Shown here piece by piece: positions 3,538 to 12,824 of a stretch of 64,000 bases of DNA (positions are counted from its first letter, which is position 1; each line of letters begins with the position of its first letter). The stretch is from assembly GCA_011390935.1 (NCBI GenBank), contig JAABRL010000001.1:141940-205939 (forward strand), given 5' to 3'. The notes under the pieces were generated by a model. That model made no database searches, had not been told where the DNA came from, and saw nothing but the letters and a program-made list of their open reading frames with translations. Source of the DNA: Gemmatimonas sp. GTDB lineage: Bacteria; Gemmatimonadota; Gemmatimonadetes; Gemmatimonadales; Gemmatimonadaceae. A program made the position numbers and the translations under genes.

Positions 3538-3541
<4 letters not shown>
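2006..3541 (+). CDS. hutH: Histidine ammonia-lyase
   Basis: [14 protein letters not shown], the MIO-forming ASG motif in [14 protein letters not shown], and [13 protein letters not shown] overlap with the upstream CDS. Confidence 0.96.
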
Positions 3542-5210
<1,669 letters not shown>

Positions 5211-5217
<7 letters not shown>

Positions 5218-6200
5218 GTTCGCGGTACCGCCCCTGGCACGTGCCACTGTTCATGGCCAAGTACGCGTTGTTGCGGGTGCGACGTCGTCCCGTGCTGCTC
5301 AACCTCGAAGTCACCATGCGCTGCAACGCGAAGTGCGGCTTCTGCGACTACTGGAAGACGCCCGCGCAGGCGAAAGCGGAAGAGTTGCGCGAGTTCGCCG
5401 ACATCGCGCGTCGCTTCAATCCCATGATGATCACATTCACAGGTGGCGAGCCCACGCTGCGGCGCGACCTGGAAGACATCGTGGCCTCGGTGCGCGCCGC
5501 CACCTCGCTGTCGTACCTCACCATGATCACGCACGGTGGCATGCTCACCCTCGATCGTGCGCAGTCGCTGTGGGACGCGGGGCTCGATCAGTTCAATATT
5601 TCGCTCGATTATCTCGATGGCCGCCACGACGATGCACGCGGCATCCCGGGACTGACCGGCAAGATCATGGACACGGTACCGCGCATGAAGGCCGCGGGTA
5701 TCGGCAGCGTGCGCTTCAACACCGTGATCAAGAACGACAATCTCGATCAGCTGCTGCCGATCGTGCACACGGCCGCGCGCATGGGCGCAGGTGTGAACTT
5801 CTCCGTGTACACGGATGCGAAGAACGGCAACGGCGAGCATCTGCTCAATGATGCGCAGCATCGTGCGCTCGACGACGCGATTGCCGCACTGCTCGACTAC
5901 AAGCGAAAGCACCGCGGCGTGATCACCAACTCCGACCACTACCTCGCGGAGATTCCGCGCTGGGTGCGTGGGCAACTCACCGAACCGTGTCCGAGTGGCA
6001 CCACCACGGTGCATGTGGACCCGAAGGGCACGGTACGGCGCTGCCCTGACTTTCCTCCCGATGTGGATTGGAAGCAGTGGAAGCCGTATGAGCCCATCGC
6101 ATGCGATGATTGTTTCTACGCCTGCCGCGGTGAGGCGCAGGCGCCCATGCGCTGGTCACGCGTGCTTGATGTCATGGCGCGTCCCTCGGCGACCGAGTGA
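5211..6200 (+). CDS. Radical SAM protein with SPASM-like C-terminal Cys cluster
   Basis: [19 protein letters not shown] gives CxxxCxxC (C38, C42, C45); [14 protein letters not shown]-terminal [21 protein letters not shown]...[11 protein letters not shown]. Overlaps the hutU stop and the hutI start. Confidence 0.9.
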
Positions 6201-7477
6201 GCGTCGTGCCCACCACGCTCTTCGTGAACGCGGCGCAGACCGTTACCTGTTCGGGGCCGGCGCGTGCGCGTCGCGGCCCGGAGATGCAGGATGCCGGCGT
6301 GCGTGACGGGGTGGGCGTGGCCGTGCAGGGGGAGCGCATCGTCATGGTGGACACCGACGATATGCTACGACGCGCATATCCCGACGCGCACGAAGTCGAC
6401 TGCAATCGCGGGCTGCTCGCGCCGGGTTTTGTGGACTCGCACACGCACGCGGTGTTCGGGGCCGCGCGCTTCGCCGAACATGAGCTGCGCGCCACCGGCG
6501 TGCCCTATCTCGAAATTGCGCACCGCGGCGGTGGGATTCATTCGTCGGTGCGCAGTCTGCGCGACACGCCGAGCGGTGTGCTGTTCGACCTCGCCGTGCC
6601 CCGTATGGCGCGACTGCTTGCCGGCGGGGTGACCACGGTCGAGATCAAGTCGGGATACGGCCTGTCGGTGGCCGAGGAGCTGCGCACGTTGCGCGTGATT
6701 CGCCAACTTGCCGAGGCGTTGCCGGCACGCGTGGTGGCCACGTGTCTCGGCGCCCATGAAGTACCGCTGGAGTATCGCGAGGCATCCGGCGGTCGCGAGG
6801 CGTGGCTGGTCGCGCTCGAAGAGGAGTTGCATCCGGCGGTCGCGCGTGAGGGGCTCGCGCACTTCGCCGACATCTTCTGCGAGCCGGGCGTCTTCACGCG
6901 CGACGAGTCGCGCCGTGTACTCGCCGGCGCTCGCGCCGCCGGGCTCGCCCTCAAGCTGCACGCCGATGAACTGCACGACGGCGACGGGGCGTCGCTCGCC
7001 GTGGAACTCGGCGCGACCTCGGCCGATCACCTCGCCGCGATCTCGGATGCCGGAATCACAGCGCTCGCGGCCAGCGAGACCGTGGCCACGTTGCTGCCCG
7101 CCACCATGCTCTTTCTTGGCACCGGTCGGCAGGCGCCGGCGCGCCGGCTCCTCGAGGCCGGGGCGGCGGTGGCATTGGCCACCGATTTCAACCCCGGCAC
7201 ATCGCCGCTCACCAGTTTTCCGCTCCTGCTGACGCTCGCGGTCAGCGAGCTGCGCATGTCGGCGGCCGAGGCCTGGCTTGCCACGACCGTCAACGGCGCC
7301 GCAGCGCTTGGGCTCGCCGGCGAGACCGGCCAGCTCGCGGCGGGATTCTCCGCGGATCTCGCGGTGCACGCCGTCGACGACTACCGGGCGTTGCCTTACT
7401 GGTTCGGCGAGCGTCTTTGCGACGTGGCGTGGTGCCGCGGCCGCGCTTGTCACTCATCCCGCGCTGTCGTAGCTTGA
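6197..7477 (+). CDS. hutI: Imidazolonepropionase
   Basis: GLLAPGFVDSHTHAVFGAARFAEHELRATGVPYLEIAHRGGGIHSSVRSLR; LHADELHDG; ATDFNPGTSP. GTG start. Confidence 0.96.
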   Translation: MSVVPTTLFVNAAQTVTCSGPARARRGPEMQDAGVRDGVGVAVQGERIVMVDTDDMLRRAYPDAHEVDCNRGLLAPGFVDSHTHAVFGAARFAEHELRATGVPYLEIAHRGGGIHSSVRSLRDTPSGVLFDLAVPRMARLLAGGVTTVEIKSGYGLSVAEELRTLRVIRQLAEALPARVVATCLGAHEVPLEYREASGGREAWLVALEEELHPAVAREGLAHFADIFCEPGVFTRDESRRVLAGARAAGLALKLHADELHDGDGASLAVELGATSADHLAAISDAGITALAASETVATLLPATMLFLGTGRQAPARRLLEAGAAVALATDFNPGTSPLTSFPLLLTLAVSELRMSAAEAWLATTVNGAAALGLAGETGQLAAGFSADLAVHAVDDYRALPYWFGERLCDVAWCRGRACHSSRAVVA

Positions 7478-7546: not shown

Positions 7547-10500
7547 ATGTCGAACGCCGCCAAGTACAAGAAAAAAGCGGCCGAACTCGAGTTGCAGAAG
7601 CAGTTCGACAAGGCGGTCGCGATGTACGTGCGCGCGATCGAAGCTGGGGATGCCGAGGGGGCCGAGGTTGATGTCACCGTCCTGAACAAGGTTGGTGACC
7701 TCACGCTCCGCCTTGGGCGCGTTGGCGAAGCGGTCACGTCGTACGAGCGGGCGGTCGAGCACTACACCACCGTCGGCCTCTTCAACAACGCGATCGCGCT
7801 CTGCAACAAGATTCTGCGCCACGCTCCAGGCCGTGCCGGGATCTATCTCACGCTCGGCCGCGTGTGCGCGAAAAAGGGCATGCGCGGCGACGCGACACGC
7901 AACTTCCTCGAGTACGCGTCGCGCATGAAGCAGGAAGGGCGCACCGACGAGGCCATGCGCTCGCTGGCGGAAGTGGCCGGTCTCATGCCGGAGCTCGATG
8001 AGGTGCGTCGGCTGGTCGAGGAGCACGCTGAGCGGGTGGGGATTGCCCTGCCGGCTGCGGCGGCGCCCGAGGACGGGGACGCCGGCGGTGCCGCACGTCG
8101 TGACAGTCTCGTGTTCCTGGACATCGACTACGATGCGCCAGTTGCGCCGACGCCACCGATCGGCGCGTTGCCGATTCCCGCTCGTCCGACGCCGCTCGCG
8201 TCACCCGCTGTGCCGCCGGCCGATGCGCCTCGCACGAGCTCTCTCGACGATCTGCTGATCTTCGACCCGTTGTCGGACGACGGGGGGCCAGAGGAGGCGG
8301 CATCGCTCGAAGGGCTCGACACGCTGCCTGATGCCGAGGACGCTCACGATGTGCCGTCCTTGCTGACGCCCGCGGAGTCCATCGTGGTGGATCCGTCGCT
8401 GACGGTCGCGGATGGGTTGACGGATGCGCTCGGCTTCGATGTCGAGGCGCCGTCGCAGGGTGACGCTCCCCCGGTCGAAGGGCTGGTCAGTGATGTCGAC
8501 GACTACGCCGCCGATTCGCCGAGCGCGCCCGAGCACGCTGCGGCCGTCGAGGACATCGACACGCCCGTCGACGACACACCAACGCTCGACACCTCGGCTC
8601 TCGACACCTCGGCTCTCGACACCTCGGCTCTCGACACCTCGGCTGTCGACACCGCGGCTGATGAAACACCGGAGACCGCGCCCGTTTCCCCAGACGATGA
8701 CGCGGAGGCACTCGAGGAGGTGGAGCACGAGCTCGAGACGCTCACCCCGTACATGGGCGTCGCGGCCATCACGCCCCCGTCCGAGGAGGCGCTGCCGCCG
8801 GTTGCGCTCGATACGCTGTCGCCATACGATGGCGTTGAGACGGTGCCCGTATCTCCGTCGGAACCGCTGCATGAGCTCGACACGCTGTCGCCCTACGATG
8901 GTGTTGACGCCGTCACACCTGCGTCGGTGGAGACGGTGTCGTCGAACGAAGCGGGTACGGCGCACGAGGTGATGTCGGAAGCGAGCCTGCACCATGACGG
9001 CGCTGCCGACGCGATCGAGACGGTCGAGAACGCGGGGCAGCCCGTTGCGCCCGAGTTTGAGCTCTCGCTCGAGGCGATCGATGCACTCGACGTGTCCCGT
9101 GAGGCGACCGATGCACTCGACGTGTCCCGTGAGGCGACCGAGGCGCTGGAGGTGCCGGTTGAGACGACCGATGTACCCGACGGATCAGTCGAAGCGACCG
9201 AGGTGCTCGAGATGCCGGGTGCGGAGGCCGAGCGACCTGACGTGTCGCGTGACGCCACCGACGCAGACGAGGCCTCACGCAGCGCGGCTGATGACCTCGA
9301 GATCGCGTACGACGCGGCACTGTCGCCCGAGTTGATGGACGAGGTTGAAGTGTCACGTGAGGTGATGGACGAGGTTGACGTGTCACGTGAGGTGATGGGT
9401 GACGTCGAGCGGTGGCCCGCGATGATCGACGACGTCGAACTGTCGCCTGAGCTCTTGGACGGCATCGAACCGTCGCGTGAGGTATGGGACGACGTTGCGC
9501 TGTCGCCTGAGGAACTGGGTGAGGTCGAACTGTCGCCCGAGGCAGTCAACGAGGTTGAGATCTCGCCAAATGCGGACGGCGATGCGGTTGGCGACGCGGA
9601 GGTCCCGTTTGCGGTGGCAGGTGAGCTCGACGTGTGGCCTGAGGCGCTTGCCGAGGACGAGACCCCGCTGAATGAGCGTGACGAGCTCGAGGTGGCGCAC
9701 GAGGGGCATGTTGAGAACGAGGATGTTCCACAGGTGGTGATCGCCGACCTGCTGATGAGTGAGCCGCTTCCGCCGGCGCACTCCACGAGGCCGGCGCGCG
9801 TGATTCCGCGTTTGGATCCCCACGATTTCATCCTGCCCGGCGAGCTGCCGCCGATCGTGCTCCCCGACGAATGGCTGGGCGCCGCGGTGTCGGTGCCGAT
9901 CCCCTCTTCGGAGTCGCCCGCGGCGTTGGTGGATGCGCCCCTTGCCGACGAGGTCAACCTCGCCACGGACGAGCCGGCGATGGTGGACGAGCCGGCGATG
10001 GTGGACGAGCCGGCGATGGTGGACGAGCCGGCGATGGTGCCTGAGACGTCGGCGGCGGTCGAGCCGCTGATGGAGGCACCAGCTGATACGTTCGACGCGC
10101 CGATGGCAAACGGTCTCGTCCAAACGCCCACGGACTCGCTGGAGGGTAAGCCGCCGGCGAGCGCGCTCACCCCGGTCGACGAGGCGGAGACGCCCGCTGA
10201 TGCGGCGAGCACGGTCGATGATCTCGACGAACTGGACGCGGCGTTCACGCCCAGCGCGTCGGCCGCGGCGTTCAACCTCATGCTCGAACGGTGCGCACGG
10301 CTGCGCGACGAAGTCGACGCACACCCGGGTGACTGGGCGCGTCGTCGGCGTCTGGCCGAAGCACTGATCGAGGCGGGAGAGCGTGCGAGCGGTCTCGATG
10401 AGCTGGCGGCCACGGCGCTCGGACTGGAGCTCGAAGGCGCGCTGCCTGACGCGGTTCGCGTGCTGGACGATCTGGTACGCGTGGCGCCGGAGCAGGTGGC

Positions 10501-11263
10501 GTATCACCAGAAGCGGGTCGAACTGGCGGTGCGCCTCGGCGATCGCGATCGGCTCCGTGAGAGCTACCTCGACCTGGCCGATGCGCTGGTGCGCTCGGGG
10601 TATGCGGTGCGCGCGGAGCCGGTCTACGTGCGCGTGCTCGAACTCGACCCGTGGGATGACCGCGCGCGCGCCGCACTCGGTGACGCGGCGCCTCCGCCGC
10701 CCTCGCCCAAACCATCTGCGGCGCCGGCCGACGACGGCTACGTGAATCTGGCCGACTGGCTGGCCGATGACGCCGCGCCGCGGGATACCCGCATGCGCGT
10801 CAAGGAACCGACCGTCACGGGGGACGAGGACGCCGATTTCGATCAGCTGCTCCAGAACTTCCGCGAGGGGGTCGCACGGAGTCTCGGCGAGGATGACTAC
10901 GAGAGCCACTACGATCTCGGAGTGGCGTACAAGGAGATGGGGCTGCTGGACGACGCCATCGCCGAGTTCCAGCGGGCCCTGCGCAGTCCGACGCATCGGC
11001 TGCCTGCCTACGAGGCGCTGGGCCAGTGTTTCCTTGAACAAGGGAGCTTTCCAGTCGCCGTCACCGTTCTATCTCGAGCATTGCATGAGCCGGGGCTCGA
11101 TGACGAACAGCGAGTCGGTGTGCTCTACCTGCTGGGCTATGCGTGCGAAGCCCTGCAGCGCCGAGACGAGGCACGGAGCTATTATCAACGCGTGTACGCC
11201 ACTGACATTCATTTCCGAGACGTCGCCGAGCGACTGACTGCCCTCGACGGGAGCGCGCGATGA
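7547..11263 (+). CDS. Large TPR protein with acidic repeat-rich central region
   Basis: N-terminal TPR-like helices (YKKKAAELELQKQFDKAVAMYVRAIEAGD...), C-terminal TPRs (ESHYDLGVAYKEMGLLDDAIAEFQRAL...), long D/E/V-rich low-complexity middle with tandem repeats. Confidence 0.8.
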   Translation: MSNAAKYKKKAAELELQKQFDKAVAMYVRAIEAGDAEGAEVDVTVLNKVGDLTLRLGRVGEAVTSYERAVEHYTTVGLFNNAIALCNKILRHAPGRAGIYLTLGRVCAKKGMRGDATRNFLEYASRMKQEGRTDEAMRSLAEVAGLMPELDEVRRLVEEHAERVGIALPAAAAPEDGDAGGAARRDSLVFLDIDYDAPVAPTPPIGALPIPARPTPLASPAVPPADAPRTSSLDDLLIFDPLSDDGGPEEAASLEGLDTLPDAEDAHDVPSLLTPAESIVVDPSLTVADGLTDALGFDVEAPSQGDAPPVEGLVSDVDDYAADSPSAPEHAAAVEDIDTPVDDTPTLDTSALDTSALDTSALDTSAVDTAADETPETAPVSPDDDAEALEEVEHELETLTPYMGVAAITPPSEEALPPVALDTLSPYDGVETVPVSPSEPLHELDTLSPYDGVDAVTPASVETVSSNEAGTAHEVMSEASLHHDGAADAIETVENAGQPVAPEFELSLEAIDALDVSREATDALDVSREATEALEVPVETTDVPDGSVEATEVLEMPGAEAERPDVSRDATDADEASRSAADDLEIAYDAALSPELMDEVEVSREVMDEVDVSREVMGDVERWPAMIDDVELSPELLDGIEPSREVWDDVALSPEELGEVELSPEAVNEVEISPNADGDAVGDAEVPFAVAGELDVWPEALAEDETPLNERDELEVAHEGHVENEDVPQVVIADLLMSEPLPPAHSTRPARVIPRLDPHDFILPGELPPIVLPDEWLGAAVSVPIPSSESPAALVDAPLADEVNLATDEPAMVDEPAMVDEPAMVDEPAMVPETSAAVEPLMEAPADTFDAPMANGLVQTPTDSLEGKPPASALTPVDEAETPADAASTVDDLDELDAAFTPSASAAAFNLMLERCARLRDEVDAHPGDWARRRRLAEALIEAGERASGLDELAATALGLELEGALPDAVRVLDDLVRVAPEQVAYHQKRVELAVRLGDRDRLRESYLDLADALVRSGYAVRAEPVYVRVLELDPWDDRARAALGDAAPPPPSPKPSAAPADDGYVNLADWLADDAAPRDTRMRVKEPTVTGDEDADFDQLLQNFREGVARSLGEDDYESHYDLGVAYKEMGLLDDAIAEFQRALRSPTHRLPAYEALGQCFLEQGSFPVAVTVLSRALHEPGLDDEQRVGVLYLLGYACEALQRRDEARSYYQRVYATDIHFRDVAERLTALDGSAR
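8585..8659 (+). repeat. 15-bp in-frame tandem repeat (LDTSA), 4 exact copies plus 1 degenerate
   Basis: ctcgacacctcggct x4 (8585-8644), then gtcgacaccgcggct. Confidence 0.97.
9081..9140 (+). repeat. 30-bp direct repeat, 2 identical copies
   Basis: atgcactcgacgtgtcccgtgaggcgaccg at 9081-9110 and 9111-9140. Confidence 0.95.
9341..9400 (+). repeat. 30-bp direct repeat, 2 near-identical copies
   Basis: gaggttga(a/c)gtgtcacgtgaggtgatgg(ac/gt) twice. Confidence 0.93.
9968..10039 (+). repeat. 18-bp in-frame tandem repeat (DEPAMV), 4 copies
   Basis: gacgagccggcgatggtg repeated four times without interruption. Confidence 0.97.
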
Positions 11264-12267
11264 CCGTATCCACGCGCACCCCGTCGGCGTTGGCGGCGGC
11301 GCTGCGCGACATTCAAGCGCCCGTCCAGCGGGAGCTCGAGCTGGTGCCGGGCGAGATCCGGCGCATCGTCACCGCCGACGTTCCGCTCGTGCAGGAGGTG
11401 GGAGACCATCTGCTGAGCATGAAAGGCAAGTTGCTGCGCCCCACGCTCGTGCTGCTGGCCGGCTCCGTCGAGGAGCGGCTCGATCCGGCGCGAGCGATCA
11501 CCTGCGCCGCCGTGGTCGAGCTGCTGCATCTGGCCACGCTCATTCACGATGACGCCGTGGACCATTCCGTGTTGCGACGCGGGATGCCCACGGTGAACTC
11601 GCTGTTCAGTCACCAGGTCTCGGTGATCATGGGCGACTTCCTGTACTCGCGCGTGATGCGGGAGCTGGTGGCGCTCGAGGACATCGAGGTGATGCGCGTG
11701 GTGTCCAACGCTTCCGATGCGATGACGCTTGGCGAAATGCGGCAGCTCGCCGCGTTCGATGCGCTCGCGTTCACCGAGGCTGACTACGAGCGGCTGATCC
11801 GTGCCAAGACGTCGGCGCTCTTTGTGGCAGCGTGTGCGGTCGGCGCGCTCAGCGGCGCCCCGTCGCACATGCAAGCGCTCGCGCGCTATGGCGAGCGGCT
11901 GGGCATGGCGTTTCAGGTGGCGGACGACCTGCTCGACTACACCGAAACGGCGGCCATGACGGGCAAGCCGAGCGGGCTGGATCTGCGGGAGCACAAAGTC
12001 ACGTTGCCGCTGATCGCGGCGCTACGCACGATGTCCCCCGCGGCTCGCGTTCAGGTCGAGGCGTTGTTTGCCACGTCGGAACCAAGCGAAGCGTCGGTGA
12101 ACGAGGTGATTGCGCTGGTGCGTGACGCGGGTGGGCTGGACTACGCTCGGCGTCGGGCGGAGCAGTTCGCGCAGGAAGCCGAGGAGGCGATCGCCGAGCT
12201 GCCCCACGGCGCTGCCCGGAACGCGTTGTACGACGCGATCGGGTACGCCGTTGATCGGCGCTGGTGA
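11260..12267 (+). CDS. Polyprenyl synthetase family protein
   Basis: KGKLLRPTLVLLA, LLHLATLIHDDAVDHSVLRRGMPTVN (first Asp-rich motif), VADDLLDYTETAAMTGKPSGLDLREHKVTLPLI. Confidence 0.93.
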   Translation: MTVSTRTPSALAAALRDIQAPVQRELELVPGEIRRIVTADVPLVQEVGDHLLSMKGKLLRPTLVLLAGSVEERLDPARAITCAAVVELLHLATLIHDDAVDHSVLRRGMPTVNSLFSHQVSVIMGDFLYSRVMRELVALEDIEVMRVVSNASDAMTLGEMRQLAAFDALAFTEADYERLIRAKTSALFVAACAVGALSGAPSHMQALARYGERLGMAFQVADDLLDYTETAAMTGKPSGLDLREHKVTLPLIAALRTMSPAARVQVEALFATSEPSEASVNEVIALVRDAGGLDYARRRAEQFAQEAEEAIAELPHGAARNALYDAIGYAVDRRW

Positions 12268-12560: not shown

Positions 12561-12824
12561 ATGGGCCTTCAAGGCATCGGATTTACCGAAATCCTCATCC
12601 TGTTGGTGGTGGTGCTGCTGCTCTTCGGGGCCAAGCGCATCCCCGAGATCGCCGGGTCGTTCGGCAAGGGCATCACCGAATTCAAGCGCAATCTGAACGA
12701 TGCGCAGAAGGCGATCACCGAGACGCCGCCGCCTCGCGCGGATCGAGCGGTTGGTGCGGCTCCGCCGGCCGAGTCCGTGGCCCGCGAAGAAGAGCGTCCC
12801 GAACCGAAGCGACTGCTCAACTGA
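12561..12824 (+). CDS. tatA: Sec-independent protein translocase TatA/E
   Basis: MGLQGIGFTEILILLVVVLLLFGAKRIPEIAGSFGKGITEFKRNL; SD-like aggagtcaggag upstream. Confidence 0.93.
   Translation: MGLQGIGFTEILILLVVVLLLFGAKRIPEIAGSFGKGITEFKRNLNDAQKAITETPPPRADRAVGAAPPAESVAREEERPEPKRLLN

Follow-up and report, generated by a model that had tools for sequence, protein, structure and literature searches.

The SPASM and Twitch enzymes of the radical SAM superfamily carry, in the first four positions of their C-terminal motif, the pattern CX9-15GX4C-gap-CX2C, and the full SPASM motif comprises seven cysteines, CX9-15GX4C-gap-CX2CX5CX3C-gap-C; it has been cautioned that within this subgroup function is difficult to infer from similarity (PMC6231123). 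For the auxiliary cluster, uptake of an electron has been proposed in BtrN, and holding of the substrate has been shown in MoaA (PMC9012708). Gene neighbourhood is a main clue for guessing the functions of radical SAM proteins. The window analysed here, a stretch of 64,000 nucleotides from a Gemmatimonas sp. genome (assembly GCA_011390935.1, contig JAABRL010000001.1), contains a gene for such a protein, rSAM, amid the genes for histidine utilization (hut), with the following features.

3-2009, + strand: 3' part of an LptD-like gene, anchoring an older block (TonB-TolB-Pal-CpoB-TatC-LptD upstream); homologue of the LptD of locus L069 (PF19838), upstream region seen in L099
2009-3541, + strand: hutH, histidine ammonia-lyase (NCBIfam TIGR01225, 626 bits, cut-off 539)
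3538-5217, + strand: hutU, urocanate hydratase (TIGR01228, 951 bits, cut-off 375); its stop overlaps the rSAM start
5211-6200, + strand: rSAM, radical SAM protein of 329 aa with a Twitch-like C-terminal domain, ATG start (ORF, PF04055, alignment, AlphaFold model)
5322-5345, + strand: CxxxCxxC, C38/C42/C45, predicted ligands of the SAM-binding [4Fe-4S] cluster, invariant in 39 orthologues
5988-6125, + strand: C260-x12-G273-x4-C278 ... C298-x2-C301-x3-C305, then RGE(A)QAP, predicted auxiliary Fe-S cluster site
6197-7477, + strand: hutI, imidazolonepropionase (TIGR01224, 388 bits, cut-off 298); its start overlaps the rSAM stop
7547-11263, + strand: TPR protein, next gene of the older block (synteny; Pfam TPR on the L069 homologue)
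11260-12267, + strand: polyprenyl synthetase, block member (PF00348 on the L069 homologue)
12561-12824, + strand: TatA-like protein, block member (PF02416 on the L069 homologue)

On both sides the reading frames interlock as the earlier note had described: the TGA of hutU (5215-5217) overlaps the start region of rSAM (ATG 5211), and the rSAM TGA (6198-6200) overlaps the GTG of hutI at 6197. These overlaps suggest co-expression of rSAM with hut in many species. In-frame stops flagged inside many of the genome matches were disregarded; the orthologous ORFs taken from the fetched loci are open.

The product was claimed to be a radical SAM protein, and both the core domain (Pfam Radical_SAM, PF04055, 79 bits against a cut-off of 29.5) and the motif of C38, C42 and C45 place it in this superfamily. 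The same domain is matched by 39 of 39 orthologues and is the only one recognised consistently among them, with no peptide-recognition domain found by the Pfam scan. In the alignment of these orthologues (mean column identity 70%), C260, G273, C278, C298, C301 and C305 are invariant. The region following the core displays the Twitch pattern CX9-15GX4C-gap-CX2C with a beta-hairpin and then a helix, the AlphaFold model (mean pLDDT 89.9) having strands at 266-269 and 274-276 and helices at 302-305 and 315-322. Of the SPASM/Twitch C-terminus proposed earlier, the Twitch-like set of five cysteines stands, but the protein does not have the complete SPASM motif of seven cysteines, its C-terminal cysteines being only five, which end in CX2CX3C.

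MoaA, the GTP 3',8-cyclase, likewise consists of a radical SAM core and a Twitch domain, and it is the best match of rSAM among curated families and PDB sequences; identity with MoaA (TIGR02666) was rejected at 88.5 bits against a cut-off of 284, and another gene of the genome encodes the true MoaA, at 356 bits. BlsE, the cytosylglucuronate decarboxylase, is the top Foldseek match (E 3.9e-15) and similar in length, but only 20% identical, and its own family (TIGR04466) gives 45 bits against a cut-off of 400. With the Twitch enzymes BtrN and SkfB, rSAM shares the first four C-terminal cysteines in their order CX9-15GX4C-gap-CX2C (PMC6231123), but it has the additional invariant C305 in C-x2-C-x3-C-R-G-E and is missing the N-terminal peptide-binding domain of SkfB. 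PqqE and the SPASM maturases belong to the same radical SAM subgroup, and the PqqE match extends over rSAM residues 26-278; however, seven SPASM cysteines are needed in these enzymes (PMC6231123) whereas rSAM has five, and the PqqE profile (TIGR02109) reaches 69 bits against a cut-off of 381. The PTO1314 family (TIGR03961), of unknown function, gives a long match to residues 21-275, with 88.6 bits against a cut-off of 306.

Among the NCBIfam profiles, no curated radical SAM family came near its cut-off for rSAM (best 88 bits), and among the NCBIfam, Pfam and PDB profiles nothing except the superfamily domain exceeded it. The fold search on the predicted structure returned generic Twitch/SPASM relatives only, the best solved matches being BlsE, MoaA, SkfB, SuiB and PqqE with TM ~0.6 and 15-21% identity. 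A search of a plasmid collection gave weak matches only, the best ones being PqqE, and in the literature on radical SAM proteins in Gemmatimonas, on histidine utilization and on membrane-spanning lipids I found no account of the protein. Eleven radical SAM frames were classified in the genome of the window (two further matches fell outside the classification), and rSAM is the sole one without a named family; the other ten are MoaA, MiaB, BchE, HemN, HemW, LipA, RimO, an MqnE/MqnC-type protein that lies above the CofH subfamily cut-off, and two RlmN-like frames, one of them partial. By its sequence, rSAM belongs to a known kind of enzyme, the Twitch-like radical SAM proteins, and is an orphan among them. 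The BchE frame of the same genome (810 bits, cut-off 481) lies outside the window on contig C19 (L003:766-2499), right beside HemN, which suggests bacteriochlorophyll synthesis; the organism may be a phototroph.

In a search of 298 Gemmatimonadota genomes, full-length rSAM orthologues of 58-89% identity were found in 99 of the 103 genomes of the Gemmatimonadaceae (f1), the family of the window, whose own genome is included, and a shortened copy in G257 (70% identity over 209 residues) brings the number of rSAM-bearing genomes of this family to 100. The same search found no orthologue in the other Gemmatimonadota families sampled, only proteins of ~25-37% identity. The CxxC..YxCRGE signature, searched as a DNA pattern, matched 99 of the 103 f1 genomes and two others of the 298 (G097 and G178, both f8), with zero matches for the reversed control pattern. 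When 84,980 species genomes were scanned, the best 80 of 159 matches were nearly all titled Gemmatimonadetes or Gemmatimonadaceae; one titled Kuenenia and one titled Vicinamibacterales were taken as mislabelled. Within the phylum the restriction of rSAM to this family has good support; outside it, the restriction is provisional. In the tree very long branches part the family from every other homologue and leave the donor of the gene without a place. Within the Gemmatimonadaceae rSAM is near-universal, single-copy and strongly conserved. In genome G177 the rSAM block occurs three times, each time on another contig (L064, L065, L068), two of these copies lacking hutU and hutI and resembling the G199 locus; the extra copies lie on small contigs, one pair being 92% identical to the G199 copy and the other near identical, and they are likely, though not proven, to be mis-binned sequence.

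The gene hutU adjoins rSAM in 85 of the 100 rSAM-bearing f1 genomes, far beyond chance, so that the order hutU-rSAM-hutI is indeed conserved within the family, and the earlier note's proviso that the insertion might be unique to this strain does not apply, with orthologues in nearly all f1 genomes and an old linkage. Fifteen of the 100 have no adjacent hutU, four of which are unjudgeable through contig breaks (G171, G175, G248, G281). In 11 genomes (G243, G181, G278, G068, G244, G199, G228, G023, G021, G190, G135) rSAM is kept at the place between LptD and TPR without hutU and hutI, downstream of LptD or, in G199, of LptD-hutH. Each full loss of hut removed hutH and hutU upstream and hutI downstream and spared rSAM between them, and on a rapidly built tree from polyprenyl synthetase and SurA-like sequences the hut state of the rSAM locus changes at least six times, one of the six changes being less certain, with L090 on a long branch. 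In the cases examined, genomes with hut-less rSAM loci have their hut genes elsewhere, without rSAM; in G228 (88% complete) no hutU match was found in the genome. The relocated hutU of G181, G243, G244, G135 and G068 shows 63-66% identity to that of the window, against ~73-88% for copies at the block, which suggests that divergent hut copies have replaced the block copies in these genomes. Loci L210, L211, L212, L214 and L271 show a divergent hut set that lies at a different place and stands in for the block copy, and the histidine pathway would seem to have been replaced repeatedly in several lineages of the family.

The reverse situation is found in G102 (100% complete), which has kept TatC-LptD-hutH-hutU-hutI-TPR and has no rSAM, a natural loss useful for comparison; G031 and G258 have assembly gaps at the locus and are uninformative on the absence of the gene. 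The dN/dS of rSAM is 0.08-0.12 in pairs within the genus of the window and within g4, with or without hut in one partner, and 0.05 among hut-less loci, values that are rough at a dS near 1 or above. Purifying selection on rSAM is equal with and without hut neighbours.

Synteny gives the order of the block as TonB-TolB-Pal-CpoB-TatC-LptD-(hutH-hutU)-rSAM-(hutI)-TPR-polyprenyl synthetase-TatA. In the sister family f2, locus L229 shows TonB-TolB-Pal-CpoB-TatC-LptD-hutH-hutU-hutI-TPR without rSAM, hutU and hutI abutting; in further f2 genomes hutU is directly followed by hutI, again without rSAM, and the LptD/TPR place without rSAM is visible in L229, L232, L233, L236 and L238. In two f3 genomes hutU is followed, after a short gap, by hutI, without rSAM. 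The simplest history, drawn from synteny and not from a dated tree, would be a single insertion of rSAM between hutU and hutI, within an older block, in the ancestor of the Gemmatimonadaceae.

In the earlier note rSAM was proposed to modify a Hut enzyme or peptide or to act on an imidazole-pathway metabolite or derivative, which would mean urocanate, imidazolonepropionate or a derived imidazole. The translational overlap on both sides, the adjacent hutU in most orthologue-bearing genomes and the presence of the hut pathway in nearly all of them speak for such a role, and yet I regard it as very improbable. It finds no support in the comparison because the sister families have the same operon with no rSAM in it, rSAM stays behind on each of the at least six departures of hut and is missing wherever relocated or divergent hut loci were examined, G102 has hut without rSAM, and selection on rSAM is not relaxed after hut loss; HutH, HutU and HutI, moreover, are not known to need a radical SAM step in their established pathway. 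An accessory of hut would co-occur and travel with it, and rSAM does not. Against full independence stands the presence of hutU somewhere in 101 of the 103 f1 genomes, and a role in trans with the hut pathway is still conceivable. The linkage hutU-rSAM-hutI is old but does not appear to reflect function, and the operon link, strong as it is, with translational overlap and conservation throughout the family, is here probably misleading; rSAM is probably kept for its own sake, for reasons that have nothing to do with histidine. Could its partners be the envelope genes of the block instead (TatC, LptD, polyprenyl synthetase, TatA), for instance in the modification of a lipid, a lipid carrier or an envelope glycan? 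In hut-less loci rSAM directly follows LptD in the same orientation, but this adjacency is the default remainder of a hutH-hutU deletion, and other families have the LptD/Tat block without rSAM. A distant homologue in G097 adjoins a tetraether-lipid-synthase-like radical SAM protein and a nucleotide-sugar dehydrogenase; however, no full tetraether-synthase-like protein was found in 24 f1 genomes searched, three of which gave partial matches beyond the generic MoaA-type ones, and the lipid reading taken from this neighbour was rejected, as most of the f1 genomes searched are without such a partner. A function with the envelope genes is therefore unlikely. In this G097 locus (L118:4628-7975, f8) the homologue has the signature CWYSCRGE and the tetraether-lipid-synthase-like protein beside it scores 323 bits against a cut-off of 450.

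A peptide or protein maturase of the RiPP type, working on an unlinked precursor, is brought to mind by several of the nearest solved structures, which are peptide maturases (SkfB, SuiB, PqqE). Nevertheless, the radical SAM domain alone is consistently recognised in the 39 members, with no peptide-recognition domain, no maturase model came near its cut-off, and no conserved small ORF occurs at the mostly tight junctions on either side of rSAM, so that I hold a maturase to be quite improbable. As the earlier note had observed for the window, no precursor-peptide gene was found beside rSAM. A small molecule is favoured over a peptide because the searches gave neither a recognition domain nor a precursor nearby, and distant homologues lie near nucleotide-sugar genes: the two that carry the CRGE signature (G097 and G178) adjoin genes for a nucleotide-sugar dehydrogenase, assigned in G178 by eye from the protein start. 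These neighbours are a weak pointer to the class of the substrate.

The explanation that I prefer, and consider rather probable, is that of an orphan Twitch-like enzyme that acts on a small molecule, was inserted once into an older hut-containing block and is kept by selection unrelated to histidine. By analogy with the superfamily, C38, C42 and C45 would ligate a [4Fe-4S] cluster for the reductive cleavage of SAM, and the resulting 5'-deoxyadenosyl radical would abstract a hydrogen from the small molecule. From a weak fold similarity (TM ~0.6) and the neighbours of homologues ~30% identical, I infer that a nucleotide-, sugar- or cofactor-type compound is a more likely substrate than a peptide. 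An auxiliary cluster may be held by C260, C278, C298 and C301, with C305 perhaps as a further ligand, and could either accept an electron, as has been suggested for BtrN, or anchor the substrate, as in MoaA. I give about even chances to the wider proposal that rSAM founds an isofunctional family for a so far undescribed radical reaction that almost all Gemmatimonadaceae require, on a cofactor, a nucleotide sugar or a lipid headgroup, for example, in which case its place among the hut genes would be a historical accident. The comparison singles out this one enzyme of the family, together with its natural loss in G102.

In most loci no conserved ORF separates rSAM from its neighbours. In L074, L082, L093 and L098 there is a gap of ~0.7-1.4 kb between rSAM and hutI, and in the first three of these the gap contains an additional ORF common to them (family F16, with 271 aa in L093). 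A LolA-like gene (84 bits, cut-off 112) follows a further distant radical SAM homologue, that of G003 (f11, L104:6154-7927). The TPR gene downstream of hutI (7547-11263 in the window) differs widely in length from genome to genome, from ~590 to 1238 aa, and in the window has an acidic, repetitive middle with, for instance, repeated VDEPAM and LDTSA units.
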